A DNA stretch of 64,000 nucleotides, from positions 50,654,805-50,718,804 of the forward strand of contig NC_134847.1 of NCBI RefSeq assembly GCF_965363235.1. The letters run 5' to 3'. The position numbers were made by a program, and so were the translations under genes. This document shows positions 601-64,000 of this stretch, piece by piece. Position 1 is the first letter of the stretch. Each line of letters opens with the position of its first letter. Origin of the DNA: Mytilus galloprovincialis (taxonomy: Eukaryota; Mollusca; Bivalvia; Mytilida; Mytilidae). The notes under the pieces are model-generated. The model did no database searches, was not told where the DNA came from, and was given only the letters and a program-made list of their open reading frames with translations.

Positions 601-739
601 TATATGACGGTATTAAAAGAGTTGTGCTACAACTAATACAGTCTAGCATTTGTTTTCATTTAAGTTATGGTCTGAAACCTGTCTGAAATCTGAATGACTT
701 ATAAGGTTAATTGTGATATTACAACAAATCATTACTAAC

Positions 740-18168: not shown

Positions 18169-18223
18169 TATTTTCTATCTATGATCTTATATATATTCAA
18201 CTTAATCTGACTCTATAAATTTA

Positions 18224-21548: not shown

Positions 21549-21660
21549 CATGCCAGACGCGCGTTTCGTCTACATAAGACTCATCAGTGACGCTCATATC
21601 AAAATATTTATAAAGCCAAACAAGTACAATTTGAGGATCCAAAATTCCAAAAAGACATTT
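21549..21660 (+). repeat. Dispersed repeat family R2, copy
   Basis: Starts TGCCAGACGCGCGTTTCGTC, then GACTCATCAGTGACGCTCAT, AAAGCCAAACAAGTACAA and GGATCCAAAATTCCAAAAAG, the same order as in the copies at 37438 and 39414. Confidence 0.7.
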
Positions 21661-33618: not shown

Positions 33619-33752
33619 AAGAAGGTTTTGAAAGGAATTTGATCGTTTGAAAGTCATACCCGAAAGGATGGGAAAACTTAGAAGTTTTAGAAGTGTGTTA
33701 ACTCAATATGAAAATGAAGCAGATGTGGTCAACAAACTGTTATCAGTATCAG
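33619..33752 (+). CDS. First coding exon (5' UTR plus 28 codons)
   Basis: The exon opens after the acceptor CATTGCAG. It carries a short leader in which an in-frame TGA lies shortly before the ATG, which fixes the start at 33668. The peptide begins MGKLRSFRSVLTQYENEADV and ends NKLLSVS; it is amphipathic and helical by eye, not a signal peptide. The donor is TCAG|GTAAAA. The last base gives phase 1, as at every later junction. An untranslated exon upstream is implied by the acceptor but was not found. Confidence 0.68.
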
Positions 33753-36700
33753 GTAAAACCATTTGAATGTCTGGGTTTTTAAAAAAAAAATTCCTAATGT
33801 ATATACAATATATTCTTATCATTGTCGTTTTTATATATCTAAGTATTCCTACTCATGTCTAACTCACTGTGTACTGAAGAACCATGTCATCTATTGGCAT
33901 CACCTTGTGTCCATATTTAACTGTGGTCGTAAACATTTTTAAAGACCTTCTCACGGTACCTGAAACAAATAAGTAGCTGAGCCAAGAGCACATTATACGG
34001 CCGTATGCAAATTGATATTGTTGCAAGATTCAAATAGGATAGTTTGATTGCATTGAATCAGAAGCAAATGTATTGTCTCATCAGGAAAACACATGCCCTA
34101 GAAGACCATTAAGTGTATAAATATTATGTCAAATATAACTGTTAAAAATCCTACAACTCTGGAATAACAAACCAGAATTTGTTGCGTTATCTAAAGAAAA
34201 ATGAGCAAGTGCACATTCCCAAATCCAAACAAAAGTGTTTACTGTGTAGCAATTATATGTAGGCACATTGCCTTCTATCTATCTGACGGTCATAATTCAA
34301 ACCTTAGAATAACATCATTAATTGTTCTTTAAATTGAACATTGTGTTTTGTTCACCAGTTCCAAATTTAATGTAAAGTTCGTAGTAAAACATTCCAAGCA
34401 AACTTAAGCAATGCTACAACATTCTTTTCATCTATCTCAACAAGGAAATGCAAGTCTAAGGAATTAAATTCAAGCAAACATGTGTTAGAGAGTAATATTT
34501 GAAAAATTATCTTAGTTTAAATGATAAAAAGTCACATTCTTTAAGGGCATACGATACAGTTTTGATCCCATAATGAAATTTTTATGGAAAGCAAATTGGC
34601 GATTTTTTACCTGTTTAAATCAAATATGTTATAAAAAGGACCTTCATGAGCTACCTTTTGAGAAAATGAGGTAGGAATTTCTAATAATTGTTAAAAATTC
34701 AGATTTGTGGACGTATTTTGCCTTCCGTCAGAAATGCATAACTTATTGGTTTTAAAAGATAAGCACAGGCTGTTTTTGTTAAATTATTCATAATTTCTCT
34801 TTTATATACTTATCTTATTAATTTATGATTTTTTTGTTCAAAATAACTAAAATATATCAAATGTTCATTTATGTTGAAAAGAAACGTTATTTCTGTATAT
34901 TTATCAAATTAAAAAAAAAATGCATTATTGACTTTTTCAGGAAAATTGGTACAAATAATCTTCATACATAATCAAACCGAATGACATTTTAAAATAAGAG
35001 AGGTCTATGACCTCGTTTAAAAGTTAAATAGGTTTGAATGATAAAAATCAGTCGAAAAAATGCATTTTTGTCCCGATATGTTGCAGTCTGACGTCTCGAA
35101 AATAGAAAACAATTACGTTAGCAACGTCATTTCTTCCCCTGTAACTGTATCGAATGACCTTAAAAAGATCTAGCAAACAATTTCAAAATCGAAATCTGTT
35201 AAAAAAGCTTAATAATTGGTTTAGCAAATTCTGATTATCATATGAAGGGTTGCCGGTATTACGGGCGGTCGGACATTGGTATTCCATAATAAGTTTCGTC
35301 TTCAAATGGCATATAAAAATACCTGGCACATATGGCTGATGTGGTCAAAAATAAGCTCGAAGTGTAAAACATATAAACACAATCCAGTAATACTATCATC
35401 ATGTCACGATACGCATTTTAAATATAAAAAAAAAATTGAATGACAAAAATTGCCTTTGTACCACAGTATTGTAATTTTTATAATAAACAATGAACAGGTT
35501 CAGCGTTGTTAAAGGTTGAAATTCGCTTGTTCTTAAAGGGGGTCAGGGTGGATCAGGCGGTAGTTGTATTCCATCAGATACGAGTAACGCAGTAGAGCAA
35601 CCAAAGACATGTTTTGAAAGAGACCATTTGGAAGAGAGTGCTTTGCTAAAGAAACAGAAGAAAGGTAGTTAAATATAAACTAATGAATAAATGAAATTAC
35701 ATCACTGGTTCACCAGTGTAACTTATTGTATAACGTAGCCTTTGACGTTTGTTTTTAACTTCCGTTTTGATGTCTCGTTTTGAGATTTCTAACTAATAGA
35801 ATTGGGAATGGAAATGGGGATTGTGTCAAAAAGACAACAACCCGACCACAGAGCAGACAACAGCCAAAGGCTACCAATGGGTCTTCAATGAAGCGAGAAA
35901 CTCCCGCACCCGGAGGATTTCTTCAGCTGTTCACTAAACAAATAAGTATACTAGTTCAGTGATAATGAACGTCATACTAAAATCCGAATTATACACAAAA
36001 ACTAAAATGAAAAATCATATAAGATTAACAAAGGCCAGAGGCTCCTGACTTGGGACAGGAGCAAAAATGCAGCGGGGTTAAACATGTTTTTATAGATCTC
36101 AACCTTCCCCTATATCTATAGCTAATGTAGAAAAAACAAACATACAACAATACGCACAGTAAAACTCAGTTAAAGAGAAGTCCGAGTCCGATGTGAGAAT
36201 AGTTAACAAAAAAATATTAAACAAAATGACATTAATACATAACGTAAGAAAGGACTACTAGCAGTTATTGACATCCAAGCTTGAGACCTCAATTAAACTG
36301 ATTGAAAAATTATGTCTTCATTATATGAATATCAAGCACAATCCTTCCCGTAAGAAGATTAGTATTATATCATCATAAAATATATGAACACATAACCCGT
36401 GACATGTCAACAACTGGTTTTAGAATAAATGTGTTTAATTCCAATGCAAAGACCCTATAAGTGAATTATTTTTTAGGCCAAAATATGCAATCTATGGTGA
36501 CCTGACAACAGTATCGTAACTTTATCCCTTCTTAATAAATCTGTTTAATTAGTATCATTGCATTGGCAATTTACTTCCAAATATAATTTATCTTCAAACC
36601 TTAAACTCCACAAAGAATTTAAGAATCACAAAACAACATTATCATTGATATAACAAAAGATTGAAGAACTTGGAAATTTATTTAAGAATGTGGTTATTAA

Positions 36701-39700
36701 GATTTCAAAGAAAGTAAAAAACAAACGTTAACAAGTTAAACAAATCCACTATAATTTTAAAATATGAGGTTGCATGGTTAACGCAATAATTGGGTCCATG
36801 AAGTTGCTTAATTCAAGCCTTTCTAATAATGTTTATAAACCCTCTTGCTGCAGATTTTTTTCTTGCTTTAAAAATTGTCTCTCCAAAAGCATCTTGAAGT
36901 TTCATATCTGTGACATTGCTAAACTTGTGCCTCTCTATAGAACAGCGCTTATCCGCAATCCATATTTTTCCCGCGTTAATCTAGCCGTAACTATGACAAT
37001 ATATATATAAGTAATTATATGAAAAGATGTTTTTAATACTTTTAACCTTGAAATATAGTTGGGGTCGGTTTTTTTTCTTGCTTTCAAAAACATGAAAATA
37101 ATATACCAATTGCTACTACTAGCTTTATAGACGATTTTGTTTTATCTTTGTCAAGTGAAATATCGATGATATATGGGATAGGAATAGAAATCATTGTTTC
37201 ACCTACTAATTCAACAATGTTCAACATCTCCATTTCGAATGAAAATAAATATTTTTAGATAAGCGCTTCCATGATGAAACGGGTTTAAAAAGTATTGAAA
37301 TATCGTATGGCAATACAAGTATATCGGTTAACATATGTGTACTTTTACAATAAAAAATCCTAACTGAGAATTCAATTGCGGCATTTGAACCCAAAAGAAA
37401 TTTACAAGTTCTCTTAAATAAAGCGTGGCTTATAATTTAATACGCCAGACGCACGTTTCGTCTACATTAGACTCATCAGTGACGTTCAGATCAAAATAGT
37501 AAAATAGAAAGCCAAACAAGTACAAAGTAGAAGAGCACAGATGATCCAAAATTCTAAAAAGTTGTGCCAAATACAGCTGAGGTTACATGTATCTATGCCT
37601 GGGATTAGAAATCCTTAGTTTTCATAATAACAATATTTAATAGATTCATGTGCACCAAATTTATCTAAGATTCAAATTAATATAATATATTGAATAATAA
37701 TAATTTCCTTTGTATCATATTAATGTTATTTTAATAATAAACAATGAACAGGTTCAGCGTTGTTAAAGGTTGAAATTCGCTTGTTCTTGAAGGGGGTCAG
37801 GCAGGAGCATGCGGTAGTTGGATTCTATCAGAGAAGACTAAAGTAGGAGATCAACCAAAGAAAATATTTGAAAGAGCCCATTTGGAAGAGAGAGATTTGC
37901 CTAAGAAACAAAATAAAGGTAGATAAATATAAAGTAATGAAACACTTAAATTGCATCACTGATTCGCCAGGGTAACTTATTGTATAACGTAGCGTTTGAC
38001 TTATGTTTTAAACCTTCTTTTTAATGTTTTGTTTTTGAAGATTGTCCACAACGCAGGATTGAGAGTATCATCGCAATAGCACTTAATTGCTCCTCTTTAA
38101 ATGATATTCACACCGTCAGCCGTCACTATGTTCTCGGGAAGGGGGGGTCTAAGCAGTCAGACTACATATAATGTACCACTACCGAGTCAACACTGAGGTT
38201 GAAAGTTCGAATCCCGCACGTGGCAGGCGTGCTCTACTCAATTAATTGACTAAGATTGTTAGTTTTTGTACCAAAGACAATTACAAAACGGAGTCAATCA
38301 GAAACGTCATTTACGTGAACATATTGACGTGTTTATATCATGCACAAAAAGAATTGGTTTACATTTGTTTAACCCCAAATGTACCCAGATTTAAAACAAT
38401 ACTATCGAATATATGGAATCAATAAATAGCCTTAACTTAAAATAAAATATGAATTTTTTTTCTAATTTCAGATTAAAAATCATGCATTACAAAAAATAGA
38501 TTCGATACTCCGTAAAAATAATAAGTGTAAAAGAGTTAAATATTTCCCTTAGCACATGCCACTCACCTTTTTACTTTTGACAAGAGAACTAAGAATTACG
38601 AAACAACATTATCAATGAAATGACAAAAGAAAAAAGAACTGGAACGTTTATCAAATAGTTTGATAATTAAGATACCCAAGAAAGATTATCATTTGGAATA
38701 TTTAGGAAGAAGAGTAAACAGGACTATACCTTTGCATTGTATGTGATTTTGTGTCGTATATGGATACAACATATCCTTTGCATTTTTTAACAAATTATTA
38801 TACAAAAGATAAATTGTGCAAGGTGTAATACCACTAAATCATAGTACATCACATCCGGTTGTATACGGAAAAGGGTCGCAAAAATACTCCCTTGAAATTG
38901 ACAGTTGTAGGAAATAAATACTACATATCATTGCTGTAAAACATTTCTGAGTCATCTAAACATTTATCTTGGGTGTTTCAAAGCACCATTATTTATTTTA
39001 CTATATTTTTTCAATAGAATATTTTGGAAACTTGAGTTTACATGGTTACTAAACTTTGTACACAGGAACAAAGGGAAAATAATTCGATTCGTTAACTTTT
39101 AGTGGTGGTTATTTTATTATGTGCCATGAAATGTCATGAGAAATTGTGTTTACTAAAATCGAAATTGTTTAGTATACGAGAAGCTTTTTAAAAAAAAATG
39201 TTTATAAACATATAAAACTAACACTTTATACAAATGATAACACATGGCGCGGCGTGTAAATATTTAGATAGAATATGATTATTTATGAGGAAGTTGTCTC
39301 GCGTTTGCACTTTCACTACAAATTCGAATTATCGATAAAGTGGGAAATCCATGACAATGTATGATTGTGTAAATAAACTCATCATAGACACCAGGACTAA
39401 ATTAAGAATACGCCAGACGCGCGTTTCGTCTACAAAAGACTCATCAGTGACGCTCGAATCTAAAAAGGTTAAAAAGGGAAAATACAGTACGAAGTTGAAG
39501 AGCATTGAGGACCAAAATTCCTAAAAGTTTTGCTAAATACAGCTAAGGTAATCTATGTCTGAGGTAGAAAAGCCTTAGTATTTCAAAAAATTCAAAAATT
39601 TGTAAACAGTAAATTTATAAATATAACCACATCAATGACAACTCATGTCAGCACAAAAAGTGCTGACTACTGGGCTTGTGATACCCTCGGGGAAATAAAT

Positions 39701-42700
39701 CTCCACCAGCAGTGGCATCGACCAAGTGGTTGTAAATAAACTCATCATAGACACCAGGACTAAATTTAGTATACGATGATATTTTTTTTTAATGTATTCA
39801 GAATTTTAAAAATTACAAATGCTCGTTTAACATACCAAACTGAAGCATTCGATTCAAGTCTATGAGGAGTTGAAATAAATCATCGTAAATTTGTCTTTTT
39901 CCTTTATATTTAGGTGAAGATGTAGTCTGTCGAAAAACGTCTGTATTTCATAGAAAATATTTAGCTCGTAAATGTAAGATAGAAACGCCTTTACGGCTAC
40001 AGAAAACTCAAACAGCTCGTCAGTCTGGTATGTAACGTTATTATTTTCGAACAAATGTAAATAACCGAAAGGTCATGTAAATGTAGAAACTTTTCATATA
40101 TAAAATGATTTGGAAGATAAAACAAAATGTAGACGTAACCTACATATGTGAAGGAGAAATATTTTTTTCTACTCTCTCTAATTACATTGACTGAAAGCCT
40201 TTAAAACCATAACAGAAAGCTGACAAATTTTCATCCGAAGCTCGTTTCGTTTTAAAAACGCCATCAGTAAAAAATGAATCAAAATACCAAATTAAAAAGC
40301 AATGTTACTATGTCATGAAATCTTTCCATACTAGAAAAAAAGGGTATTAATTTCAAGCTAGGGCATTGCAAAAATTTGTCAAAATCAAAATATAATACTT
40401 GTTTGTAAGTTTCACTTAAAAAACTTGATTTTGTTTTAAATTATACCGTTTGTTTTCCCGTTTGAATGGTTTTACACTAGTAATTTTTGGGGCCCTTTAT
40501 AGCTTGCTGGCTCCGTGTTGAAGACCGTACTTTGATCTACAATGATTTACTTATATCAATTGTTACAAGGAGAGTTGTCTCATTGGTACGCATACCATAG
40601 CTTCCTATATCTATTCTTAATAGATTAATACATCATCAATTAACGATGGAAAGAAATCTTTAAATTATTCAATAAAATTAAAACATTTAATTATATCTAT
40701 TGTTTTTTGTTTTGTTTTGGGGTAACTTTTACTTTGACCATTTTGACAGTTCTAAATTCATATTTCTATATCGAAGTGTAAATTGACAGAGCTGCGAAAA
40801 TTTAAACTTGGCCTTCTTATATCATATTAATACCCTATAAGTAATTATATCATAGATATCATAATGGGTAATTATATTATGGATACCATTGTTGGGTTTT
40901 TTTTCTCGTTTGCATTTTCCCCGACAAATTCATGCTATTTAAGTGAAATATTACAAAAATGTAACATTCTGAGTGGATATATGTTTCAAAAAACATATTT
41001 CATGAGAACATTGCCTTTAGTTTTGACTCTACCGTAATTACTAGTAGACAGAGGGAGCCATACTCAGTGTTTATGTAGCTTTTTCTCCTTATTTTATATT
41101 TTGCTATAATAGAAAACTTTTCCTAAGTTATACCCTAATGATCGTTTAATAATTATGAGATGGAATTATTTATTAAGCATAAACAACAAAGGATTCACTT
41201 AAAGCTTGTTATGTCCCTCTCTAGAACGCGGCGTGAATTTAAGGTTTACGAAAGGACTTATTGAAACCGATATTGAGTTATTAAACATTTATATGGATAG
41301 TTCTTCATCTTGAATACTGCAATAACTCATTTATTATTACATTTTGTTTTTCATACATAAGTGAAGGTTACCCCAAAAGTTGAATTTATTGGCCTAGAAA
41401 ATTAACATTTTGAGGGACTCAGAGGAAAATGGACCAAAATGGACCTTCTAATAAAGACAACGAGGTTCATTAGTTATATTTATCATCCTTGAGTCATATC
41501 TTGTATCATATCCAACGTTGCAGGTAGATGATATAGATATTGGATCATTTATTGTTCTACACTATATTCTAATGTGATGTGGCCTGACTTTTTCAAAACA
41601 GTTTTATTCGAATCGCTGTAGATGTCGTCTATAATCGTAAATATGTTTTTTTCCTTTATGTTTAGGTGAAGATGTAGTCTGTCCAAACACGTCTGTATTT
41701 CAAAGAAAATATTTAGCTCGTAAATGTAAGATAGAAATGCCTTTACGGCTACAGAAAACTCGAACAGCTCGTCATTCTGGTATGTAACATTATTACTTTT
41801 GAAAACATTTATTAACCGAAAGCTCATGTAAATGCAGAAATTATTCGGATGTAAAAATAGGTCGGAAGATGAAAAAATAGACAAAATGTACAGATTTGAA
41901 GGAGAAAATGGTTTTATTCTACACTCTCTATTGACATTGACTGAAAAGCCTTAAAATGATAACAGATAGCCGACTAATTTTCATCCGAAGCTTGTTTCGT
42001 TTTAAAAATCCCCTCTGTGAAAATTGAATCAAAACAACTCGAATATAAAAAAAAATACCAAATTAAAGAGCAATTTTTACTGTGTCGTTAAACATCTTTC
42101 CTTCCTAGAAAAAAATGCACGAATTTCAAACTAGCGCATTGCAAAAATTGTAGTATAATTTGTCCAAATCGAAATATAACACTCATTTGTAAGTTTCGCT
42201 TAAAAAAACTTGAAATATAGTCCCTTTTAATAGATTAATACACCACCAATTGACAATAGAATTAATTCATTAAATTTTTTCAATACAATTAACACGCTTA
42301 ATGATATTTATATTTATTTATTCTGTTTTGGGTTAATTTTTACTTTGACCATTTTAACAGTTCTAAATACATTCCTTTTACTCCAGAAATTGTGTAAATT
42401 CGCACATATGACATTGAACATAAAAACTTTTGTCTTTTAACTGTCTCCGATTTTCCATATCAAAGTGTAAATGAACAGAGCTGTGTAAATTAAAACATGG
42501 CCTTCTAATATATTATATGAATCCTCTACTAGTAATTATATCATAGATAACATAATGGGTAATTATATCATGGATACCATTGTGCATGGGTTTTTTTTTT
42601 TCTCGTTTGCATCTTCCCCGACAAATACGAATATATGAAAATGTGGGAAACCCGTGACAATATATGTTTATATATTATAACAGATGATTATTTATTACAC

Positions 42701-45700
42701 ATGTTTAAAATTAAACAAACTACAAAAGCTCGTGTCAAAATAACAAACTGTCTGATTAAGAAGGATATGAATCAAATCTGATAGAATTCCAAATTAATCT
42801 TCGTTAATTTATTTTTCCCCCTTTATCCTTAGTTGAAGATCTAATCAGTCCAAACACTAACTTCTGATTGGTCTCTAAGACATTGAATGTAGAATATAAA
42901 CGCATTTCGTAATTTCCTGATTTTTTACTATATGAAAAATTCAATTGAACTGAGCTGTTTAGATTGAAAATGTCCTTCTTATATTGTATTACTACTCTAT
43001 TGATAATTATAGTATATCATAGAGGTAAATAAAAAACAGAGACTTTCAAACTTATAAGTAAAAGTGACAAACTTTACACCTTCGATCGATCATTGATTGT
43101 TTTCTATTCAATTCTAACTACATATAGTGTTAACATAGCGATCAGGTCTAACCCCGCCACATTCTGTAGTGCCTGTCATGAGTCTGTATTCAGTGGTTGT
43201 CGTTGGTTGTCGTGTTACATATTTGTTTTTTGTTCATTATTTTTCACAAACATAAGGCCTTTAGTTTCTAGTTTGAAGGAGTACATTTATTTTGTCATTT
43301 TGAGGCCTTTAATAGCTGATTTTGCGGTAAGGGTTTTATTCATTTTTGTATAGTTCACAGTGGCCTATAGTTGTTAAAGTCATTTGGTCTTTTGTGGAGA
43401 TTTATCTCATTGGCAATTGTACCACATCATTTTTAAATATTTATGTCTTTAACATGTTCATCTTAAATCAATTTGTAACCAACAGACATAGTATTGAGCT
43501 ATTAAGGATGAAGAGTATACAAACACTGTTTCTAATGTGCATGTACTGATTTTGTGTCATGGAAGGATACCCATAATCTTTTGGGCGATGCATAAATTCA
43601 TTTTAAAATTCTAGATACGACTCAAAAATATCGCAAAATATGGAATTACTGTTGGAATCATTAAACTGTAATGGATGTGGTTTAGGTAGTCTCGCTTCAA
43701 AGTAGTATTTTATTAATCAAATGTTTAGTTTATGATTAATTTGATTTTAACATGGTAAAATATATAAAATAAGTAGCTTTATTAATTTAATTAACAAAGT
43801 CTTCTAATCTAATAACTGTTCAATATTCATTAATTCAAAACCATTTCATTACCTACAGTTTTGTAAGTGATCAGTTAATCCATAAATCATAAATAGGAGT
43901 TGGTCTGGTGAAGAGAATTTAGTTCTCCACTTGTACTTAAAGATAAAAACGAATTCTCTTCTTGTATATATGACCCAGCAGTGTTGCACTGCTTACCTTC
44001 CTTTAGACATTTAAAATTCAGTATAAATTAGCATAAAGCTCGTTGGAATTCTTAATGACTTTGAGTTAATACTCAGCAATTATTTTAGAATCATTTTGGT
44101 ACGATTAACTTAATTCCTAAACACAAAGTAAAGTATATATATTTATATCTATTTACTTTGGCATTAGTTTTTGAATAACTATTCTATTTGAATTCATTGA
44201 CTTGAAATACTTTCCTTTTCTATTTCGTTGCAAACTGACTCTAGTTATTTACATTTTGTTTTTGAACTTATCTTATGAATATCTATTCTTATTTTTTCTA
44301 TGTTTTATTTAAATGTTGTATATTTGAATATAAATAATTCTGTTTGATTTCTTTCTTTAACCATCCAAAATCAGATATCAGGTAACACAATGATCGCAAA
44401 TTATTTGCAAGCCAACAATATAGGTTCAACCCACCGATTTTTCCTTAAACTGTCCTGTACCAAATCAGGAATATGGCAGTTGTTATCTTCAGTCCGTTTC
44501 TTTGTATCTTGACATGTTCAGTGTTTTTGTTTCTATTGTTTTCTTTTTATACTTGATATATTTTCCGTTGTTTCAGTTTGTTACTTAATTTTGTTTTGCC
44601 TAATCGAATTGTGACTATTGAATAGAGGTATACTACTGTTACCTATATGTATAATGAATAACTTTGTAATCAAAAGTCCCTGTATAATTGTATTTGTCCC
44701 TTAATCTTTAGGTAAAGAGTTAACCTCTAAAGTTAATCGGAAATATTTTGCCAGTAAATATAGGAGGAAAATGTCTTTACGGTTACAGAAATCTCAAACA
44801 GCTCGTCATTCTGGTATGTATTTTTTTCTGAAACATTCGTATAACTGTTAACTCATTTAAATAAAGAAATTATTGAAATGCAAAATAGGTTGGAATATCT
44901 AAACACATGACGGAATATACATTTTTGACCAGAGTTTTCAATCAAAAGAGAACATGTGGAATTTGGTTCAAATCTTTTTTTATACGACCGCAAAAATCTT
45001 AATTTTTTGGTCGTATATTGCTATCACGTTGGCGTCGTCGTCGTCGTCGTCGTCGTCGTCCGAATACTTTTAGTTTTCGCACTCTTACTTTAGTAAAAGT
45101 GAATAGAAATCAATGAAATTTTAACACAAGGTTTATGACCACAAAAGGAAGGTTGGGATTGATTTTGGGAGTTTTGGTCCCAACATTTTAGAAATAAGGG
45201 GCCAAAAAGGCCCCAAATAAGCATTTTCTTGGTTTTCGCACTATAATTTTAGTTTAAGTGAATAGAAATCTATGAAATTTTGACACAAGGTTTATGACCA
45301 CAAAAGGAAGGTTGGGATTGATTTTTGGAGTTGAGGTCACAACAGTTTATGAATTAGGGGCCAAAAAGGGGCCCAAATAAGCATTATTTTTGGTTTTTAC
45401 ACCATAACTTTAGTATAAGTAAATAGAAATCTATGAAATTTAAACACAAGGTTTATGACCATAAAAGGAAGGTTGGGTTTGATTTTGGGAGTTTTGGTCC
45501 TAACAGTTTAGGAATAAGGGGCCCAAAGGGTCCAAAATTGAACTTTGTGTGATTACATCAAAAATTGAATAATTGGGGTTCTTTGATACGCCGAATCTAA
45601 CTATGTATGTAGATTCTTAATTTTTGGTCCCGTTTTCAAATTGGTCTACATTAAGGTCCAAAGGGTCCAAAATTAAACTTAGTTTGATTTTAACAAAAAT

Positions 45701-48700
45701 TGAATCCTTGGGGTTCTTTGATATGCTGAATTTAAAAATGTACTCAGATTTTTAATTATTGGCCTAGTTTTCAAGTTGGTCCAAATGGGGGTCCAAAATT
45801 AAACTTTGTTTGATTTCATCAAAAATTGAATAAATGGGTTCTTTGATATGCCAAATCTAACTGTGTATGTAGATTCTTAATTTTTGGTCCAGTTTTCAAA
45901 TTGGTCTACATTAAGGTCCAAAGGGTCCAAAATTAAACTAAGTTTGATTTTAACAAAAATGAAATTCTATGGCTTATTTGATATGCTTTATCTAAATATG
46001 TACTTTGATTTTTGATTATGGGCCCAGTTTTCAAGTTGGTCCAAATCAGGATTCCATATCAAGTATTGTGCAATAGCAAGAAATTTTAAATTGCACAGTA
46101 TTGCACAATAGCAAGAAATATCTAATTGCACAATATTGTGCAATAGCAATTAATTTTCAATTGGAGTTATCTTTCTTTGTATAGAATAGTAGTTGATAAT
46201 ATATGTTGGAAATTTGCCAGACATGACTATGATGTCATTTTCTATTTTTATTTGCCAATAACTTTATGTAAATAACTTCATTGGAAATTTGCCAATATAA
46301 AATGTTGCTGATGAAGCTTTTTTTCCTTATCTTATCTAAAATGTTTTTAGATAATGTATGTTGGACATTTGCCAGACATGACTATGATGTCATTTTCTAT
46401 TTTTATTTGCCAATAACTTTATGTAAATAACTTCATTGGAAATTTGCCAATATAAAATGTTGCTGATGAAGTTTTTTTTATTGTTTTATACAATAAACAA
46501 TGTATATTCACTTTTACTACCAACCAATCTTTACCATTCAGTGATAACAAGCACTTTATTTTACATTTTAATATTTTATGATGTATTTAAAAGAGTAGTT
46601 ATTGTTGCAAACTCCATTAGAAATTTGAATTGATATCAGTTTTGGAAAAAGGGAAACGGGGATGTGAAAAAAAAGGGGGGGGGTTTAAATTTTTCTCATT
46701 TCAGATTTCATAAATAAAAAGAAAATGTTTTCAAACATTTTTTTGAGAGGATTAATATTCAACAGCATAGTGAATTGCTTAAAGGCAAAAAAAACTTTTA
46801 AGTTCATTAGACCACATTCATTCTGTGTCAGAAACCTATGCTGTGTCAACTATTTAATTTTAGATTTAAAAAGTTTGAAGAAGAAATCTTTAATTGATTT
46901 GTAAAATCTTGACATTTGTTTTGTGTAAAAAAAAACCATGTAATGTCAAAAATTTGATCACAATCCAAATTCAGAGCTGTATCACGCTTGAATGTTTTGT
47001 CCATACTTGCCCCAACTGTTCAGGGTTCGACCTCTGTGGTCGTATAAAGCTGCGCCCTGCGGAGCACCTGGTTTTCATTTATGCTCGATATTACATGTTT
47101 CTTTCTTTTGGCTCAGATTTTTGGGGAATACAATCCCAGCTTCAGAATTTGGTCTATTCTGTCTCGTCATAGACGTTAAACTGGTTTTGTCTGTTGCCAT
47201 GCACTGTTTGGTTGACTTGAATCTCGAATTGAAGGATCAAAGCAATTGTATTTGTAATAATACTTACTTTTTTACTTTGTGTTTCTGTATCCTACCATGA
47301 ATTAAATATGTTTACAATAACTTTAATACATAAGAATGATTAAAGGAGACCATGAAGTTTAAGGGTTGTTATTAATTACTGTTACTGTTATAATTAACAT
47401 CGCCATTAAAGTGGGAGGTTTGGCATGCCACAAAACCAGGTTCAACCCACAATTTTTTTTCTTAAAATTCCCTGTACAAAGTCAGGAAAATGGCCATTGT
47501 AATATTAAAGTTCATTTCTATGGGTGTTACTTTTAAATGTTGTGTTTCTGTGGTAACGTAGTTCTCTTATATTTGATACGTTTCCCTCAGTTTTAGTTTG
47601 TAACCCGGTTTAGTTTTATCTCTATCGATTTATGAATTTCGAACAGCGGTATACCACTGTCGCCTTTATTTACGGGTTGGGTTAAACCATTAAATTGTGC
47701 ATTATCATGTGGTACAGTTGACCAGTTTAATCTTTTGCACTTGATGCATTATTCCAAATCAGATGTATTGTGAACATATCATTCATATCATGGATTAATA
47801 TTGAAACACATATACCGAACAAAAAAGAAGTGAGTACAAATTGTAATCGGGGTCACCATTCCTGGTTCAGTTAAGTTAACGGAGTTAATCAGCTTGAAAA
47901 ATAAGAAAATAAAAACTTGTGCAGAATAATCTCAAATGAGTTCGCTTCTCAGTTTCAAAATAATTAACTTTTCATAACACTAGTATATATTGATAAGGGA
48001 TTACTATAGGAACCAAAAGAGCCAAAAAAAAATATATCGGTCAATGTGCTTGTTTACGAGATATTAGCCATTAAAGTTTTGGCTGGAAAATGTTTTCTCT
48101 TGACTTTCATAGCCTTATCATTGACAAGTTTAAGTTCTCAAAAACTATTAAAGAATAATTAAAATTAAAGACTTTTACAGATGGTTTATAATTATACATG
48201 TAAGAGATTTATAAAAAAAAAATGGGGGTCAATTTTTTAAAGGCATTCAAATTGATAAAACCATAGGATTTCGAAAATCGGACAACAATTCCAAGACATG
48301 ACAAGCGAACTTCCTTAAATATGCGTTCTCACATAACAACAAATTAGTAGAGTAACACTATATTTATTGAAATTAGCCGCTTCATTTCTGTTTAAAGAAT
48401 ATAAATCCTATTAATTTTGTCATTTGTGTTAAAGTAAACACATAATCTAGAATAAAAATTAATTTTTCAACAAAAGTGACTCAAAATAACTTTTTTTATA
48501 ATAAAGCTGATTTTTCACAAAAGAAATGCTTAAGAACCTGTGTGCCTCAAGTTATATTTTGTTAGGATAAGTCAAAACACAAAAATACTGAACTCAGGGG
48601 AAAATTCAAAACCGAAAGTCCCTACTCAAATTATAAAACACATCAAACGAATGGACAACAACTGTCATATTCCTGACTTTTTACGATAATATAAATTTAA

Positions 48701-51700
48701 TCACGAGTCATCTATAGGAGTTCAAATTTGTTCCATGCAACGAATTATGGAGCCTAGTGGACTCTAAAATTTCAAATAAAAGTTCTGATTATCAACAAAA
48801 ATAAAATTTAATTCGAAAATTAATCGTAGTTTACTATACAACTAATTCTTATCAAAGTTGCATATTTTCTTTATAGAGCCACAGAACGTAAGTGCAAGAA
48901 AAAAACACAACTTATTTTCTCGATTAATTGGTGATATCACCTTTCAAAATGCAAACACGTTTATTCAATCTATTAAATGAATGAACCTGTGTAATGATAG
49001 TATCCCACCCCTTATTTGGAGGACACTGCCACCCATGAACTGCTATTGCATGATTGTTGTCGACATCTAATGACCAAAACGATATCTTTAAAATAGTAGG
49101 TCTCCTAGTCCACACTGTTATGAAATTAAATATAAATCTTAAAAGAAACACAGTGTTCAGCTAGTTTAACGTGTTTAATAGATTCACATTCTTCAAGTTC
49201 CATGTGGGACCATTTTTATATAATAGATTCAAAACAATTAGTCCCTTTTGGATCATATTTATTGCATTGTGTTATTTAAATTATGACATTCATCTGATTC
49301 AGCATTGTATGCGATTTAAAGAAGTTTCTTATTAAAATTAAGGTACAAGTTTTGGAGGTCAGCCAGATGGTAGTATCACTAAATTAACATCTAGCCCAGG
49401 AGAAGATAAACCAAAGAAACGTTTTCGAAGGAACCCGTTAGAAGGGAATACCGTGTCAAAGAAACAGAAGAAAGGTACTATAAAGTAAAATAATAAAATA
49501 CTGAACTCCGAGGAAATTTCAAAACGGAAAGTCCCTTATCAAATGGCAAAATAAAAACCTCAAACACATCAAACGAATGGATAACAACTACCATATTCCT
49601 GACTTGGCACAGGCATTTTCTTATGTAGAACATGGTGGATTGAACCTGGTTTTATAGCTAGCTAAATCTCTCACATGTATGTGTTATTTTAAAGAAAATG
49701 GTATATACTATTCTTTTTTTAGTGTTTTGTGGGTGTTTGATGAATACAAACAATTTTTTAAATCGCCTATCTTGTTAAAATATCTTCACATTTCGTCGCA
49801 AATCACTCTCCATATATCTGCCAACTAGAACCTCTAAACGGGACTTGGCCTATAAATATCGATTGTCGCGACTTCTTGAAAACGAATTGATGGAATTCAA
49901 ATAAACTTGCAATGTTACATGGGACATGAAGTTGTGGACCTGCTTATTTACCTTTAATCTTATTCATAACGGGTAGGGGTTATACATACATGCACCAGAA
50001 CAAAATAATTGACTTTGCCATTTTAAAATATATATTTATTTGAAAGGATACATGAAGTTGACATAGGTGTCCCATGAAAAACTCACACATTTACTCCACA
50101 AAAAATGACAAACGGATCTCTAGTTTGATAAAATACTCATTACTTAATTATTTTAAAACAGGGGCGAAAGATACCAAGGGAACAATCAAACTCATAAACG
50201 CAAACTAATAAATTGAAAATAAACTGACAACGCCATTGCTATAAATGAAAATGACAAACAGACAAATAATAATAATATTAGAAAGTAGACCTTTATGCTT
50301 CAACGTAGCGTGCTAGTTAGTCTCGTAAATCTGAACACATTCATACAATATAAAAATATAACATCAACATCATTTTCCACCTGTATATGCATGTATTTGT
50401 TGCCGCTGTACATAAAATTCTACCTTGTAACATTATCCTGGCTGCAAGCTAATTATATTTGAGCTTACTCCTAAATTTAGCGTGTATATATAGCAGTGTA
50501 AAATATATATCAACAACATTGTACTTTGAGGCTAACACAACATTCATTGTGACACCATGGATTCAGTATTCCTTCTGTACTAATACTTAGAACTAATATC
50601 AATGATGAAACGCAATATATGTAATCGATAAAAAAAAACAACAAAAAAACAAGTTAAAAACTACATAACTCTGAAGCGCATTTCTAGATTGACCTTCAGC
50701 AGGAACGATCAAAAGCATAATATATTTGAAGGCCAATAACTTATAACAGCTGCAATAGTTGATTAAAGATAAAGATGATTGTTCAAAAGTGTACGTTAAT
50801 AATTTCATCTGCCGACATGATTGCAGATAATATAAAGTCGTTAATAAAAAAAAAATATCTTAAAACAAATATGAGCGAATACATGTTTATTGAACAATGG
50901 TATGCCTTAACGTACAGTAAATACTATATTAATACTGAAACCTAACATATTAGCTTACTGCGAGTTGATCAGTTTTCACTGTTACTCCTAAATGATGGGC
51001 GTTTGAAATATATCAGGGGTGGTGTTCTCGAAGCTATCTTAGGATTAGAACGTGTCCTAAGTCTATCTTATGACAAGTCTTTACCCTAAGTCGTGTTCTC
51101 GAAGCTCTCTTAACTTATGATATATCTTATTTATCGTCCTAACTGTAGGACACCCAATAGGGTGTCTTATGAGCATCCTATCTTCATCCTAGTGTAATAA
51201 AGTTTGGATTTCGCTTTTTGCTCATTATTTTACGTGAAAATGAACATGAAATGAAACGCACCATCGGTTATCAACTCGTATATAAAGAAATTGTGCATGA
51301 TTTTAAACTTTGAACTTCGTGTTTCACGATACGATTACACTACAAATTTAATTCTCATTTCAAAACAAATTGTTTTCCAGTTTAAATAACAATCTTTTTT
51401 TTATATAATTACATTGGTAATTATGCATTTAATTCTGTACATGTTATTATACAATTCGTAAACAATTTTATTAAATAATTTCGTAATTAATAAATGTTTA
51501 ATCAAAAAATATCTTTAACGATTTAAAATTTCGACTTAGGATATGTTTAGGACGCCCTAACATAAGATTTGTCTGAGATAGCTTCGAGACACAACTTAAG
51601 AGTGTCCTAAGTTGATCTTAAGTTCATCCTAAAATTGGTCTAAGATGTGTCTTAGGGCGAATCTTAGGATACTTTCGAGAACACCACACCAGAACTGTCC

Positions 51701-54700
51701 ATGTTTTATAATTCTTCAACTAAATTTTTGCAAACCATTATCAGAGTTACATATAATATTTTTTGTAGTAATCTATTATATGACATCTGAGTTTTTTTAA
51801 CATGGTTATATGTGCACAGTTCTTTTAAAATTCTTTAATAAAAGTCGTCTAAATACTTAAGTTACGATCATTTTTCAAAAGTTACGACCATCTTGTTTCG
51901 GTTACAACCATTATCCAAAACACTGACTAGATCAATTTTATCATCGGAATGTAATTCGGGGTCCCCTTACGAATCTATGTGTCTGACTGTCCCTCTGGTA
52001 TCTTTCGTCCCTCTTTTGCGTTCGTTTGTATCTTTTTTGGAAAAATGTAAGAAAGCTCTATGATGACGAACAATTAGCATACAATGGCGACCTCTTAGCA
52101 AAAAATAACAGATTATCAGCATTAAATGACAAAGTATCAGATTCAGCGTTATATGCATTTAAAAGAAGTTTCTTATTAAAAAGAAGGTACAAGTTTTGGA
52201 GGACAGGCAGATGGTAGCAGCATTAAATTACCATCTAGTCCAGAAGGAGACAAACCAAAGAAGCGTTTTCGAAGGAACCAATTAGACGGGAAAACAGTGT
52301 CAAAGAAACATAAGAAAGGTACTATAAAGTAAAATCATAAAATACTGAACTCCGAGGAAATTTCAAAATGGAAAATTCCTCATCAAATGGCAAAATAAAA
52401 ACCTCAAACAAATCAAACGAATGGATAACAACACCATATTCCTAACTTGGCACAGGCATTTTCTTATATAGAAAATGGTGGATTGAACCTGGTTTTATAG
52501 CTAGCTAAATCTCTCACGTGTATGTGTTATTTTAAAGAAAATGGTATATACTATTCTTTTTTTAGTGTTTTGTGGGTGTTTGATGAATACAAACAATTTT
52601 TTAAATCGCCTATCTTGTTGAAATATCTTCACATTTCGTCGCAAATCACTCTCCATAGATCTGTCAACTAGACCCTCTAAACGGGACTTGGCCTATGAAT
52701 ATCGATTGTCGCGACTTCTTGAAAACGAATTGATGGAATTCAGATAAACTTACAATGTTACATGGGACATGAAGTTGTAGCCTTGCTTATTTACCTTTAA
52801 TCTTATTCATAACCGGTAGGGGTTATACATACATGCACTAGAACAAAATAATTGACTTTGCCATTTTTAAATATATATATTTATTTGAAAGGATACATGA
52901 AGTTGCCATAGGTGTCCCATGGAAAACTTACACATTTACTCCACAAAAAAGACAAACGGATCTCTAGTTTGATAAAATAATCATAACTTGATTATTTTAA
53001 ATAGGGGCGAAAGATACCAATGGAACAATCAAACTCATAAACGCAAACTCATAAATTGAAAATCAACTGACAACGCCGTTGCTATAAATGAAAATGACAA
53101 ACAGACAAATAATAATAATATTAAAAAGTAGACCTTTATGCTTCAACGTAGCGTGCTAGTTAGACTCGTAAATCTGAACACATTCATACAATATAAAAAT
53201 ATAACATCAAAAATATTTTCAACCTGTATATGCATGTGTTTGTTGCCGCTGTACATTAAATTCTACCTTGTGACATTATCCTGGCTGCAAGCTAATTATA
53301 TTTGATCTTACTCCTAAATTCAAAGTGTATATAGCAGTGTAAAATATGTATCAACAACATTGTACTTTGAGGCTAACACAACATTCATTGTGACACCATG
53401 GATTCAGTATTCCTTCTGTACTAATACTTAGAACTAATATCAATGATGAAACGCAATATATGATCGTCATGTAATCGATAAAAAATAAAAACAACTCGTT
53501 AACAACTACATAACTCTGAAGCGCATTTCTAGATTGACCTTCAGCAGGAACGATCAAAAGCATAATATATTTGAAGGCCAATAACTTATAACAACTGCAC
53601 TAGTTGATTAAAGATAAAGATGATTGTTCAAAATTGTACGTTAATAATTTATCTGCTGACATGATTGCAGTAGTATAAAGTCGTTAATAAAAAAATATTA
53701 ACTAAAAACAAATATGAGGGAATACATGTTTATTGAACAATTGTATGCCTTAACGTACAGTAAATACTATATTAATACTCAAACCTAACATATTAGCTTA
53801 CTGCGAGTTGATCAGTTTTCACTGTTACTCCTAAATGATGGGCGTTTGAAATATATCAGGACCGTCCATGTTTTATAATTCTTTAACTCAATTTTAGCAA
53901 ACCATTATCAGAGTTACATATACTATTTTTTGTAGTAATCTATAATATGACATCTGAGTTTATTAACATGGTTATATGTGCACAGTTCTTTTAAAATTCT
54001 TTAATAAAAGTTCGTCTAAATACTTGAGTTACGATCATCTTTAAAAGTTACGACCATCTTGTTTCGGTTACAACTATTATCCAAAACACTGACTAGGTCA
54101 ATTTTATCATCGGAATGTAATTCAGGGTCCCCTTACGAATTTATGTGTTTGACTGACCCTCTGGTATCTTTCGTCCTTCTTTTACTTTCGTTTGTATCTT
54201 TTTTGGCAAAATGTAAGAAAGTTCTATGATGACGAACATTTAGCATAAAATGGCGACCTCTTAGCAAAGAATAACAGATTATCAGCATTCAATGACAAAG
54301 TATCAGATTCAGCATTATATGCATTTTAAAGAAGTTTATTATTAAAATGAAGGTACAAGTTTTGGAGGACAGGGAGATGGTAGCATCATTAAATTACCAT
54401 CTAGTCCAGCAGGAGACAAACCAAAGAAGCGTTTTCGAAGGAACCAATTACAAAGGAATACAGTGTCAAAGAAACATAAGAAAGGTACTATAAAGTAAAA
54501 TAATAAAATACTGAACTCCGGGGAAATTTCAAAACGGAAAGTCTCTCATTAAATGGCAAAATAAAAACCTCAAACACATCAAACGAATGGATAACAACAC
54601 CATATTCCTGACTTAGCACAGGCATTTTCTTATATAGAAAATGGTGGATTGAACCTGGTTTTATAGCTAGCTAAATCTCTCACGTGTATGTGTTATTTTA

Positions 54701-57700
54701 AAGAAAATGGTATATACTATTCTTTTTTTAGTGTTTTGTGGGTGTTTGATGAATACAAACAATTTTTTAAATCGCCTATCTTGTTGAAATATCTTCACAT
54801 TTCGTCGCAAATCACTCTCCATAGATCTGTCAACTAGACCCTCTAAACGGGACTTGGCCTATGAATATCGATTGTCTCGACTTCTTGAAAACGAATTGAT
54901 GGAATTCCAATAAACTTGCAATGATACATGGGATATGTAGTTCTGCACCTGCTTATTTACTTTTAATCTGAATACATTCATACAATATAATATATAACAT
55001 CAACATTATGTACATTATTTTCAACATGTCAATTGTATGTGTTTGTTGCCGCTGTACATAAAATTCTACCTTGTAACATTATCCTGGCTGCAAGCTAATT
55101 ATATTTGAGCTTACTCCTAAATTTAGCGTGTATATATAGCAGTGTAAAATATATGTATCAACAACATTGTACTTTGAGGCTAACACAACATTCATTGTGA
55201 CACCATGGATTCAGTATTCCTTCTGTACTAATACTTAGAACTAATATCAATGATGAAACGCAATATATGATCGTCATGTAATCGATAAAAAATAAAAACA
55301 ACTCGTTAACAACTACATAACTCTGAAGCGCATTTCTAGATTGACCTTCAGCAGGAACGATCAAAAGCAATATATATTTGAAGGCCAATAACTTATAACA
55401 ACTGCACTAGTTGATTAAAGATAAAGATGATTGTTCAAAAATGTACGTTAATAATTTCATCTGCCGACATGATTGCAGATAATATAAAGTCGTTAATAAA
55501 AAAAAATATCTTAAAACAAATATGAGCGAATACATGTTTATTGAACAATGGTATGCCTTAACGTACAGTAAATACTATATTAATACTCAAACCTAACATA
55601 TTAGCTTACTGCGAGTTGATCAGTTTTCACTGTTACTCCTAAATGATGGGCGTTTGAAATATATCAGGGGTGGTGTTCTCGAAGCTATCTTAGGATTAGG
55701 ACGTGTCCTAAGTCTATCTTATGACAAGTCTTTACCCTAAGTCGTGTTCTCGAAGCTCTCTTAACTTATGATATATCTCATTTATCGTCCTAACTGTAGG
55801 ACACCCAATAGGGTTTCTTATGAGCATCCTATCTTCATCCTAGTGTAATAAAGTTTGGATTTCGCTTTTTGCTCATTATTTTACGTGAAAATGAACATGA
55901 AATGAAACGCACCATCGGTTATCAACTCGTATATAAAGAAATTGTGCATGATTTTAAACTTTGAACTTCGTGTTTCACGATACGATTACACTACAAATTT
56001 AATTCTCATTTCAAAACAAATTGTTTTCCAGTTTAAATAACAATCTTTTTTTTTTATATAATTACATTGGTAATTATGCATTTAATTCTGTACATGTTAT
56101 TATACAATTCGTAAACAATTTTATTAAATAATTTCGTAATTAATAAATGTTTTATCAAAAAATATCTTTAACGATTTAAAATTTCGACTTAGGATATCTT
56201 TAGGACGCCCTAACATAAGATTCGTCTGAGATAGCTTCGAGACACAACTTAAGAGTGTCCTAAGTTGATCTTAAGTTCATCCTAAAATTGGTCTAAGATG
56301 TGTCTTAGGGCGAATCTTAGGATACTTTCGAGAACACCCCCCCCCCCAGAACTGTCCATGTTTTATAATTCTTCAACTAAATTTTTGCAAACCATTATCA
56401 GAGTTACATATAATATTTTTTGTAGTAATCTATTATATGACATCTGAGTTTTTTTAACATGGTTATATGTGCACAGTTCTTTTAAAATTCTTTAATAAAA
56501 GTTCGTCTAAATACTTAAGTTACGATCAATTTTCAAAAGTTACGACCATCTTGTTTCGGTTACAACCATTATGCAAAACACTGACTAGGTCAATTTTATC
56601 ATCGGAATGTAATTCAGGGTCCCCTTACGAATTTATGTGTCTGACTGTCCCTCTGGTATCTTTCGTCCCTCTTTTGCGTTCGTTTGTATCTTTTTTGGAA
56701 AAATGTAAGAAAGCTCTATGATGACGAACAATTAGCATAAAATGGCGACCTCTTAGCATAGAATAACAGATTATCAGCATTAAATGACAAAGTATCAGAT
56801 TCAGCGTTATATGCATTTAAAAGAAGTTTCTTATTAAAAAGAAGGTACAAGTTTTGGAGGACAGGCAGATGGTAGCAGCATTAAATTACCATCTAGTCCA
56901 GAAGGAGACAAACCAAAGAAGCGTTTTCGAAGGAACCAATTAGAAGGGAAAACAGTGTCAAAGAAACATAAGAAAGGTACTATAAAGTAAAATAATAAAA
57001 TACTGAACTCCGAGGAAATTTCAAAATGGAAAATTCCTCATCAAATGGCAAAATAAAAACCTCAAACAAATCAAACGAATGGATAACAACACCATATTCC
57101 TAACTTGGCACAGGCATTTTCTTATATAGAAAATGGTGGATTGAACCTGGTTTTATAGCTAGCTAAATATCTCACGTGTATGTGTTATTTTAAAGAAAAT
57201 GGTATATACTATTCTTTTTTTAGTGTTTTGTGGGTGTTTGATGAATACAAACAATTTTTTAAATCGCCTATCTTGTTGAAATATCTTCACATTTCGTCGC
57301 AAATCACTCTCCATAGATCTGTCAACTAGACCCTCTAAACGGGACTTGGCCTATGAATATCGATTGTCTCGACTTCTTGAAAACGAATTGATGGAATTCC
57401 AATAAACTTGCAATGATACATGGGATATGTAGTTCTGCACCTGCTTATTTACTTTTAATCTGAATACATTCATACAATATAATATATAACATCAACATTA
57501 TGTACATTATTTTCAACATGTCAATTGTATGTGTTTGTTGCCGCTGTACATTAAATTCTACCTTGTAACATTATCCTGGCTGCAAGCTAATTATATTTGA
57601 GCTTACTCCTAAATTTAGCGTGTATATATAGCAGTGTAAAATATATGTATCAACAACATTGTACTTTGAGGCTAACACAACATTCATTGTGACACCATGG

Positions 57701-60700
57701 ATTCAGTATTCCTTCTGTACTAATACTTAGAACTAATATCAATGATGAAACGCAATATATGATCGTCATGTAATCGATAAAAAATAAAAACAACTCGTTA
57801 ACAACTACATAACTCTGAAGCGCATTTCTAGATTGACCTTCAGCAGGAACGATCAAAAGCCAAATATTTGAAGGCCAATAATTTATAAGAACTGCAATAG
57901 TAGATCAAAAAATAAAGATGATTGTTCAAAATTGTACGTTAATCATTTCATCTGCCGACATGATTGCAGATAATATAAAGTCGTTAATAAAACAAAAAAT
58001 ATCTAAAAACAAATATGAGGGAATACACGTGTATTCAACAATTGTATGCATTAACATACAATAAGTACTATATTAATACTCAAACCTAACATATTTGGCC
58101 TACTGCGAGTTGATCAGTTTTCAATGTTACTCCTAAATGATGGGCGTTTTGAATACATCAGAATTGTCTATGTTTTATAATTGTTTAAATTAATTTCTGC
58201 AAACCATTATCAGAGTAACATATACTATTTTTTGTAGTAAACTATAATATGGCATCTAAGTTTATTAACATGGTTATATGTGCACAGTACTTTAAAAGTT
58301 CGTCTAAATACTTGAGTTACGATCATCGTTAACAAAAAAACGACCATCTTGTGTCGGTTACAACCATTATCCAAAACACTGACTTGGTCAATTTTATCAT
58401 CGGAATGTAATGCAGGGTCCCATTACGTTCCTTTGTATCTATTTTGGCAAAATGTAAGAAAGCTCTATGATGAAGAACAATTAGCATAAAATGACGACCT
58501 CTTAGCATAGAATAACAGAGTATCAGCATTAAATGACAAAGTATTATCGTAAATAACAAAGTACCATCATATTACAACAAAATATTAGCACTAAAAGAAG
58601 ACCAATCGACAAAGCATAAAATGCCACACCAAAAACATCTATGGCTTTCAATAGATCTCCATAACAACTGCATAGAACTCTTCATACATGTGAGCATAAT
58701 TTGTTTTTGGTTCTGTCTCAAACCAATATTCTAAAACATAACATTTTGAATTTTTAACCTTCATGCCTAAACCAATAATGTTTGGACATTTATAAGGAGA
58801 AAATTGAGAATATTTGTTTTATTTTGAAAATATTTATTAGCTATTAAATATTTCACTCCCTCGTGTCTTTGTCATGTCATTGCATAACTGAAATATTCAA
58901 AGTAATGAAAAAGATCATTCATCACGATTCCATTCATCAAATTGCTCTTGCAGGTACAAGTTACAAATGCCAAGACTTATCATTTAAAAACAAACTACTG
59001 CTGGCAATCCAAGATGAGAATGAAGATACGTGCAAAAATCTAATGGCCAATTCTCAGGTAGAAGAAGTTTTGAAAGTTCTTTTTGCAGCTTTCAAGAAAG
59101 CTTTGTCAACAAATAATGATGGAATTAAAAAAGAAGTTTTCTCTAAAATAGCAAAGTATTCGGCAGATATTATTAAGAAATTTCGAAAATCTACAAATAG
59201 CATTCCGGAAAATGCCATCATTTGGATGGGAACACACTGTACCTGCGATAAGACAAATATCAAGAGATATAAAGATTTACCATGTTTAAACACACTACCA
59301 GAAATAGTTGTTGAAATGAACGAAAGTGGAGCTAAATTTGATGCATCCGAAGAATTCTTTGGCTTTTCGGTTAGAGTTATAAATTTAACTACAGACAAAT
59401 CTGAAGATAATGAAGCGAAAACAGTACTCAAGGAGGCAGTAGGAAAATCAAATGGGTGTATTGTAAAACACGAAATACATGCAAGTATAGCCAAACATCT
59501 CTTTAACCGCCATAGTAATCTAACGATGGTCTGTCCGTCAAAATGGAAGTCTACAGGATTTAATCAGAAACAGAAACATAAAGTAGATAAAATTGACTGT
59601 ATAAATTTATTCTGTAAAACAAAAGGTATCGTTCCAATAGGGGAGCACCATTTCCCACAAAAAATTCAAGGTTTCCCGACAGATGTGTTAAATGGAACTT
59701 CTTACCTTACAGGTAAATTGAAAATAGGAGATACGATTAACAATAGTTATGGAACTGGAACACTGGGCGGATTCGTGAAATATTACGGTACGGATACTTT
59801 TCTAACTTGCGCTCATGTAATATTTGGGAAAGACAATTTACTCGATCTTGAGAAAGAGAAAATTCATTTTATGTGTCGAAAGATGAGAAACAATGGATCA
59901 GAGCCGGTCGAATGCATCCTAATACGCCATGCATTGAAATTCGATACAGTAAATGAGTATAATACATCGACAGAAATAGAGGAAATGGATATTGAAGAGC
60001 CAAACGAATTGCCACAATCTCAACAAACAAATGTCCCGGAAACAAGTGTTGACGCTGCGCTGCTTCTAATTCAAATCCCAACAGACATGTCAAATACGAT
60101 GGTTAATTTAAAACTTGTATTGAACGATACAGTGTCATCAACAAGACGAAATCTGAAACGTATGGGTTGGTACATTATTATTTCATCTCTTTCTTTTATT
60201 TAAGTGCCATCTCGCTACTTCATAGTATTGTTTCTATACTGCCGAAATGAATTACAGATAAACGAGAACATAACAAGGAAAAAAAAACCGAATCACCAAT
60301 AAAAGCTGCACAGTACAACACACCACACTGACCATGAGAATATTTGAGGTTTACGATAAAAAAAAAAATACTACATTTAAACAAGAACGAACAAGACATG
60401 GTCAACATTAAATAATTGAGATGTTGATAATATGTCAATCCGAAAGCAGGCAAAATACTTATAAAGTACGACATATATCAGTCAATGTTATGTCGAATAT
60501 ATAATTAAGACATAAACTTTTACATACAAACAATTCACTTTTTTATCTTTATGTCGTCTGAAAAACTAATATCAACCAAACATGATAGTTAAAATGTAAG
60601 GAATATTCTATTTCTAAATATGAATCCGCTACTATGAAAGACATGTTCAATTTACAAAAAATCCTGCCCTCTGAACCTACAGATTGAAAAACATCTATAC

Positions 60701-62313: not shown

Positions 62314-62739
62314 TTACGACGTAAGGAACATATCCGATATCATTTGTGAAACGGTTATTCCATAACGGTCAACCAACTCGTGATGGCGTCCGTAAAATTT
62401 ACGAAGGGATGATTTCAACTTCACCATTTGGAACTCTTGGTTTAATAGCTTCCTTGTGAGCAGTAACCCTCTATCAAGAAAATCATGATAGGAAACGCAA
62501 GCACGGGAATATCGTATCAATTGGGAGATATATACCCCGTATGCAGGTGCTGCTGGAATGTTGCTACTTAGAAATGGAAAGTTCACAATTGGAAAGCTGA
62601 AATCATCTCTTTTGTCGTAAAGTTTTGTTTTCAACCGACCCTCATTGTCAATTTCTAGATGTAAGTCAAGATATGAAGCCGACTTAACTGTATCTGTAGT
62701 ATCCTTTATCTCCAATTCGATGGGATAGATGCGTTCCAC
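62314..62739 (-). pseudogene. C-terminal part of Penelope-like reverse transcriptase
   Basis: A 141-residue open segment: ERIYPIELEIKDTTDT, YLDLHLEID, DFSFPIVNFPFLSSNIPAAP, RYSRACVSYHDFLDRG and ends VSQMISDMFLTS. It belongs to the element above. Confidence 0.7.
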
Positions 62740-63040
62740 ATAGTCACCAAATTTTTAATTGTTTAGTGAAAGAACGTCATCTATATAGCGGAAAGTAGAG
62801 TTAAAGTATGTTGCTAACTTCTTATCTTTCTTCCTAAGAAGTTCCTGCATGAAGTCAGCCTCATAATAATAAAGACGTCCTCCGAACGTTACAAATATGT
62901 TGTCAATCAAGAAATCAAGCATCTTGATAATATCGGTTTCAGAGAATTTTTTGTTTGAATCAGAGTGAATCAGAGTGAGTATCTACGTTTGCCATTCTTT
63001 TTTATGAAGCAAAGTAATACCAACTCTTTCAATTTGTCTT

Positions 63041-63838: not shown

Positions 63839-64000
63839 ATTTCGTAGAGAAGTGTTATTAACAATGTTAAGGTCACCGGTAATAACGTGGCCAGCAGGAT
63901 TATATATGAATTGGGAACTTAAACTGACAGAGAACTTCGAAGTTGATGCAAATTGTTTGTACTTTCTATATGTATTCTATCTGTTTACTATTTTTATATT

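Follow-up and report, generated by a model that had tools for sequence, protein, structure and literature searches.

The locus described here raises the question of whether a protease-like gene of the mussel Mytilus galloprovincialis can take up small exons in front of its core, or leave them out, and thereby make many protein forms with different numbers of modules, as the initial annotation had proposed. The window, that is, the whole stretch of 64,000 nucleotides that was analysed, corresponds to bases 50654805-50718804 of contig C10 in a genome of 1.38 Gb. In general terms, the following parts of the gene, all on the forward strand, can be differentiated: (i) a start exon, E1 (33619..33752 in the rebuilt exon model), with its ATG at 33669 and an in-frame TGA (read by eye) 5' of it, which exits in phase 1; (ii) nine small cassette exons; and (iii) two exons that encode the core, namely P1 (58954..60159), with a helical front followed by the first half of a trypsin-like domain, and P2 (61547..61908), with the second half followed by the stop codon.

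The cassettes lie in three groups between E1 and P1. Group A consists of A1 (35539..35664) and A2 (37793..37918), of 126 nt each. Group B consists of B1 (39914..40027) and B2 (41666..41779), of 114 nt each, and B3 (44712..44813), which is shorter than B1/B2 by 12 nt and hence measures 102 nt. Group C consists of C1 (49343..49474), C2 (52187..52318), C3 (54353..54484) and C4 (56845..56976), of 132 nt each. A dead B-like copy, whose likeness to the start of B was judged by eye, is found at 42832..42950 (+) and has stops in all three frames.

When the model was rebuilt from the sequence, the nine cassettes, E1, P1 and P2 came out at the coordinates first assigned to them. Furthermore, every one of the nine has AG/GT borders, begins and ends in phase 1 and measures a multiple of three, and the twelve exons join into one stop-free frame of 920 residues, just as the initial annotation had stated. 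All nine cassettes thus have the symmetric phase (1-1) expected of skippable exons, which allows any subset of them to be included. The modular cassette array in a gene of a protease family is real. A choice of one cassette per group, mutually exclusive as in Dscam arrays, would suit the arrangement of homologous exons in tandem groups; but with symmetric phases and lengths divisible by three the frame forces no exclusivity, and such a choice is highly improbable.

The cassettes, of 34-44 amino acids, had been described as basic modules in three tandem groups. Groups A, B and C are indeed in place, but A and C, read in the same frame, share 40-47% amino acid identity and are diverged copies of one type; in consequence, the types number two (AC and B) instead of three. 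The DNA alignment of A with C has an 11-nt gap at the exon start, though, and the two differ in length by a net 6 nt. As for the charge, the description holds for B (net charge +6 to +10) and C (+7 to +10) but not for A (0 in A1 and +3 in A2). The start-to-start spacing is 2.3 kb in A, 1.8 and 3.0 kb in B, and 2.2-2.8 kb in C, whose units are near-identical through their introns also. The stretch 3' of each C donor is a repeat, which occurs at 48567 as well, there without a cassette.

Some other features of the surroundings can be recorded. The motif TTCAGC(A/G)TT is kept some 35-45 nt 5' of A1, A2 and C1-C4, though the intervening sequence has diverged. A longer A/C exon starting from this motif was considered and rejected: stops occur in its frames, and it does not measure a multiple of three nucleotides (arithmetic by eye). 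Similarly rejected was the use of the C cassettes as coding first exons, the sole upstream Met in frame 0 running into a stop. Inverted repeats, 72-73% complementary, link 47404-47467, upstream of the C group, with 52461-52524, 54627-54690 and 57119-57182, which follow C2, C3 and C4, respectively; to judge from their sequence, they could pair the introns together in RNA. Between B3 and C1, local tandem arrays occupy 45073-46163, with periods of ~160, 135/260 and 35 bases.

Protein searches of the genome, in which the best first-look candidates were scored, found neither C nor B elsewhere (E up to 1), nor A besides the C copies (E up to 10), and the idea that the cassettes are part of a mobile element was rejected, given that these searches place A, B and C at this locus only. 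The corresponding search with E1 gave one match, E1 itself. Convincing cassettes were absent as well from stretches near five paralogous loci of the protease: (i) 13.6 kb upstream of P1 at C5:64390236; (ii) 11.4 kb upstream of P1 at C12:30796381; (iii) and (iv) about 8-10 kb beside C11:47031487 and C5:97531323; and (v) 10 kb before C12:12636344. The best matches in them were B3 at E 0.035 (contig C12, 3' of P1) and B3 at E 0.049 (contig C5, with stops), and at the other loci E 0.059.

The strength of the splice signals, scored with a matrix of the general metazoan/human consensus, differs among the groups. By this matrix, the acceptors reach the following percentiles among the 2883 AGs of the window: E1, 98; B, 98-99.8; P1, 98.5; P2, 100; A, 88; and C, 34-53. 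The donors, among 3400 GTs, stand at 98 for E1, 99 for B, 97 for A, 93 for P1 and 91.5 for C. The nine cassettes had been treated as equals, but both sites are strong in B, the signals are middling in A, and those of C, with their weak acceptors, are poor; nine equal cassettes are therefore unlikely. The same unevenness speaks against constitutive use of all nine, which would place one fixed repeat arm before the protease. Such use would agree with nine intact cassettes in phase, and constant inclusion requires no regulation; given how uneven the sites are, we consider it improbable. In any case, their weak acceptors suggest that C1-C4 may be rarely spliced.

A scan of 33.75-58.95 kb of the forward strand for exons of 90-150 nt that are open and phase 1-1 gave a control for chance, with thresholds that were the cassettes' own scores and were fixed after the cassettes were known. 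At A-level thresholds, six candidates appeared, these being A1, A2, one alternative start of A2, and B1-B3, and there were none in the control stretches (1-33 kb of the forward strand and 63 kb of the reverse strand). At loose thresholds, which admit the worst cassette, all of the 18 candidates were the nine cassettes or their alternative in-frame acceptors; 63 kb of the reverse strand gave 25 matches at these thresholds, so that the splice signals of C1-C4 do not rise above chance. The splice signals of A and B, five of the nine cassettes, do stand out from chance, and C1-C4 are supported by their homology to A and their open frame, not by splice signal.

These results bear on a less generous reading of the gene, according to which the exons in use are E1, B (perhaps A), P1 and P2 only, and C1-C4 are recent, decaying copies of a poorly spliced exon that was duplicated in a unit of 2.2-2.8 kb. 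The weak C acceptors and the failure of the C exons to exceed the rate of the control strand fit it well, and so does the near-identity of the C units, introns included, which marks them as young copies with little independent sign of use. Against it stand the reading frames: frame 0 is open in 4/4 C copies and also in the diverged A (6/6 copies in all), while among the 12 other A/C frames, taken over the exons, the single one without a stop is frame 1 of C3. Against it stands, too, the dN/dS of 0.31-0.35 between C1 and C2-C4. We regard this reading as possible, though unlikely.

Starting from an open frame, neutral simulation leaves 6/6 A/C copies open in 0.1-0.35% of runs, and 3/3 B copies in 11% of runs. 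The dN/dS is about 0.5-0.85 for A vs C and about 0.9 for B1-B3, and it is undefined (dS 0) for C2-C3, C2-C4, C3-C4 and B1-B2. The open A/C frames, together with length changes in multiples of three and loose dN/dS, indicate that the frame is kept while the residues drift, as in a linker. The groups differ when exons are compared with their introns. The B exons are constrained: B1 and B2 differ at 6/114 exon sites vs 58/233 sites of the adjacent introns (Fisher P 3e-6), with the same direction in B1-B3 and B2-B3 (P 0.003 each), and the B exon is thus constrained as DNA also. Between A1 and A2 the exon is not better conserved than the introns (P 1.0), and dN/dS is 1.7. Between C1 and C2 the exon (17/132 differences) is less conserved than the downstream intron (10/299; P 4e-4), and upstream more sites differ (47/118) than in the exon; C1 may lie, upstream of its exon, outside the shared duplicated unit.

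With respect to the core, the description of a serine protease-like domain is borne out by the residues of a His/Asp/Ser triad, which are present in order: His (FLTCAHV) and Asp (SVDAAL) in P1, and serine within GDSG in P2. H288, D367 and the GDSG serine are here taken to be the triad on the basis of general knowledge of the PA clan. At 24 paralogous loci aligned with the protease exon of the window, the His (H288) and Asp (D367) columns are at least 90% conserved, and GDSG is present in the P2 of the window and of two close paralogues, those on contigs C5 and C12. Compared with the paralogue on contig C5, the core has a dN of 0.38-0.40 and a dS that is 2.9 or saturated; since dN is far below dS, the core is under purifying selection.

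The fold is less easily placed. A structure model of P1 (mean pLDDT 70), which lacks the second barrel, resembles PA-clan proteases, and a Foldseek search with it ranked plant NAL1 first but weakly, with a TM-score of only 0.17. Sequence similarity to NAL1 was absent among the 3 phmmer and 6 profile-search matches at E up to 10, and no protease was among the matches of the sequence searches (phmmer, profile) for solved relatives. With Pfam Trypsin_2 as profile, 3/25 family members gave matches at E<=0.1, the lowest E being 0.013; the gene in the window was not among them. An intracellular-type, trypsin-like (PA-clan) protease is predicted, with the even confidence given below to the explanation of which it forms part. 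Two family loci deserve a separate mention. At L030 (G000:C2:19716861) the same exon lacks the protease triad and has ankyrin-like repeats in front (Ank_2 E 0.00047, below the cut-off). At L049 (G000:C12:12626001-12636000), the 10 kb before the P2 match at C12:12636344 contain no P1 match, and that P2 match reflects either a long intron or an orphan exon.

The paralogues show what may precede the protease exon. Among the candidate acceptors 5' of this exon, the one richest in pyrimidines is phase 1 in 16/21 paralogues examined (24 aligned), a count that includes some ties, the near-copies L017 and L018, and L012, whose site precedes the opening of the frame; in the remaining five, the top three acceptor candidates include a phase-1 site. 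On contig C12, the P1 of the paralogue is preceded by two exons that match HEPN_DZIP3 (E 5e-16 and 1e-13); the first is symmetric in phase 1, and the second exits in phase 1. Their order, strand and phase suggest that these exons and the protease form the same gene. In the stretches examined at the contig C5 paralogue and three others, there was neither a HEPN nor a convincing cassette. The initial annotation knew the architecture as no described family. The genome searches found the cassettes here only, but the architecture stands less alone than supposed: the protease exon aligns with 24 paralogous loci, one of them with upstream HEPN_DZIP3 exons.

The HEPN exons lead to a further possibility, namely that the gene has a relic front: its ancestor would have carried a HEPN module that was lost except for the last helix, E1, and the locus would be drifting towards a pseudogene or be partly a product of assembly. 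It is true that a weak alignment of 26 amino acids connects E1 with the last part of the second HEPN exon on contig C12, which hints that E1 might be a remnant of a HEPN module; that the window contains no HEPN match with the contig C12 exon as query (best E 1.3); and that the A cassettes look unconstrained. But the likeness of E1 to HEPN is not significant (E 0.46), the splice sites of E1 are good, and both protease exons are intact, retain the triad and show purifying selection. A relic is accordingly very unlikely. HEPN_DZIP3 is abundant in the genome (150 scored matches of 711 candidates), which would suit a bivalve, and none of the 150 family matches listed, which have at least 71 bits, lies in the window; the contig C12 exons, at 52-59 bits, are likewise absent among them, so that a weak domain in the window would escape this list.

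Several known systems can be compared with this gene. Bivalve DZIP3/hRUL138-like HEPN proteins share with the family the HEPN_DZIP3 domain of the contig C12 paralogue, which is abundant in this genome and, as reported, in pearl oyster, but the window gene has no HEPN match with the contig C12 exon as query. For pearl oyster, expanded DZIP3-like HEPN and NACHT genes with haplotype copy-number differences and a putative RNase motif are reported, and the main text has no occurrence of "trypsin" or "serine protease" (PMC9646362). Among the NARROW LEAF1 (NAL1) trypsin-like serine proteases of plants, a maize protein is reported to be a trypsin-like protease that degrades a TOPLESS-like corepressor (PMC12915138). 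The likeness of plant NAL1 to the P1 model is structural and weak, and no NAL1 chain was among the matches of the sequence searches given above.

Regarding the cassettes themselves, titin PEVK exons vary without frame change. Titin and Dscam have tandem exon arrays which resemble the present one in being made of small homologous exons (PMC6469411, PMC4835542). Dscam arrays are described there as mutually exclusive or, in chelicerates, as tandem 5' cassettes, whereas here cassettes of 34-44 amino acids, unconstrained in such choice, stand before a protease. In the titles and abstract beginnings of the literature searched, neither this gene nor molluscan cassettes of this kind before a protease were described.

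Elsewhere in the window, four other features were observed. At 21550-21593 (-), the Type I hammerhead ribozyme of Rfam (RF00163) matches with 35 bits, its gathering score being 34. Two very similar tandem-repeat stretches, 14351-14802 and 18869-19321, lie ~4.5 kb apart and flank a frame of 367 amino acids (17074-18174, -) that we take to be a retroelement gag; repeats and gag-like frame possibly represent an LTR-type element. At 62317-63976 (-) there are three frames, presumably of a broken reverse-transcriptase element, with similar frames upstream of the protease exon of the contig C5 paralogue. Finally, a frame of 106 amino acids at 738-1055 (-) has a cysteine pattern that, in our estimation, resembles a PAN/apple domain.

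Taking the evidence together, we give an even chance to the explanation that this is a live PA-clan protease gene whose phase-1 intron is a slot for symmetric exons, with B included often and A and C seldom or conditionally. The phase-1 intron before the protease exon would have turned into a site where small symmetric exons can settle, and the AC and B types would have multiplied here by tandem duplication of kilobase units, introns included. The spliceosome would then add or drop pieces of an arm before the protease and leave the enzyme, predicted to be active, untouched: the strong B sites would lead to frequent inclusion, and those of A, above all those of C, to seldom or conditional inclusion. 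Many isoforms could arise in this manner from variation in cassette number. In the protein, the cassettes would make up an arm at the N-terminus that is probably disordered and varies in length and positive charge; this arm could serve nuclear targeting or act as a tether that binds nucleic acid or a partner. Basic clusters such as KPKKRFRR presumably resemble nuclear-targeting or nucleic-acid-binding stretches. A bolder version, which we hold to be distinctly doubtful, is that of an immune-type bivalve protease family with a conserved, exchangeable phase-1 slot, filled by RNase-like HEPN exons in one copy and by home-grown K/R-rich cassettes here, the latter being free to form up to 512 combinations and so to tune location and binding.

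If the cassettes are variably spliced, the gene would represent an uncommon case of splice-made diversity in an intracellular-type invertebrate protease. Even without variable splicing, the protease family looks under-annotated, with 24 aligned paralogous loci that Pfam barely sees, and the phase-1 slot would provide a simple, testable account of how front ends are exchanged within it.
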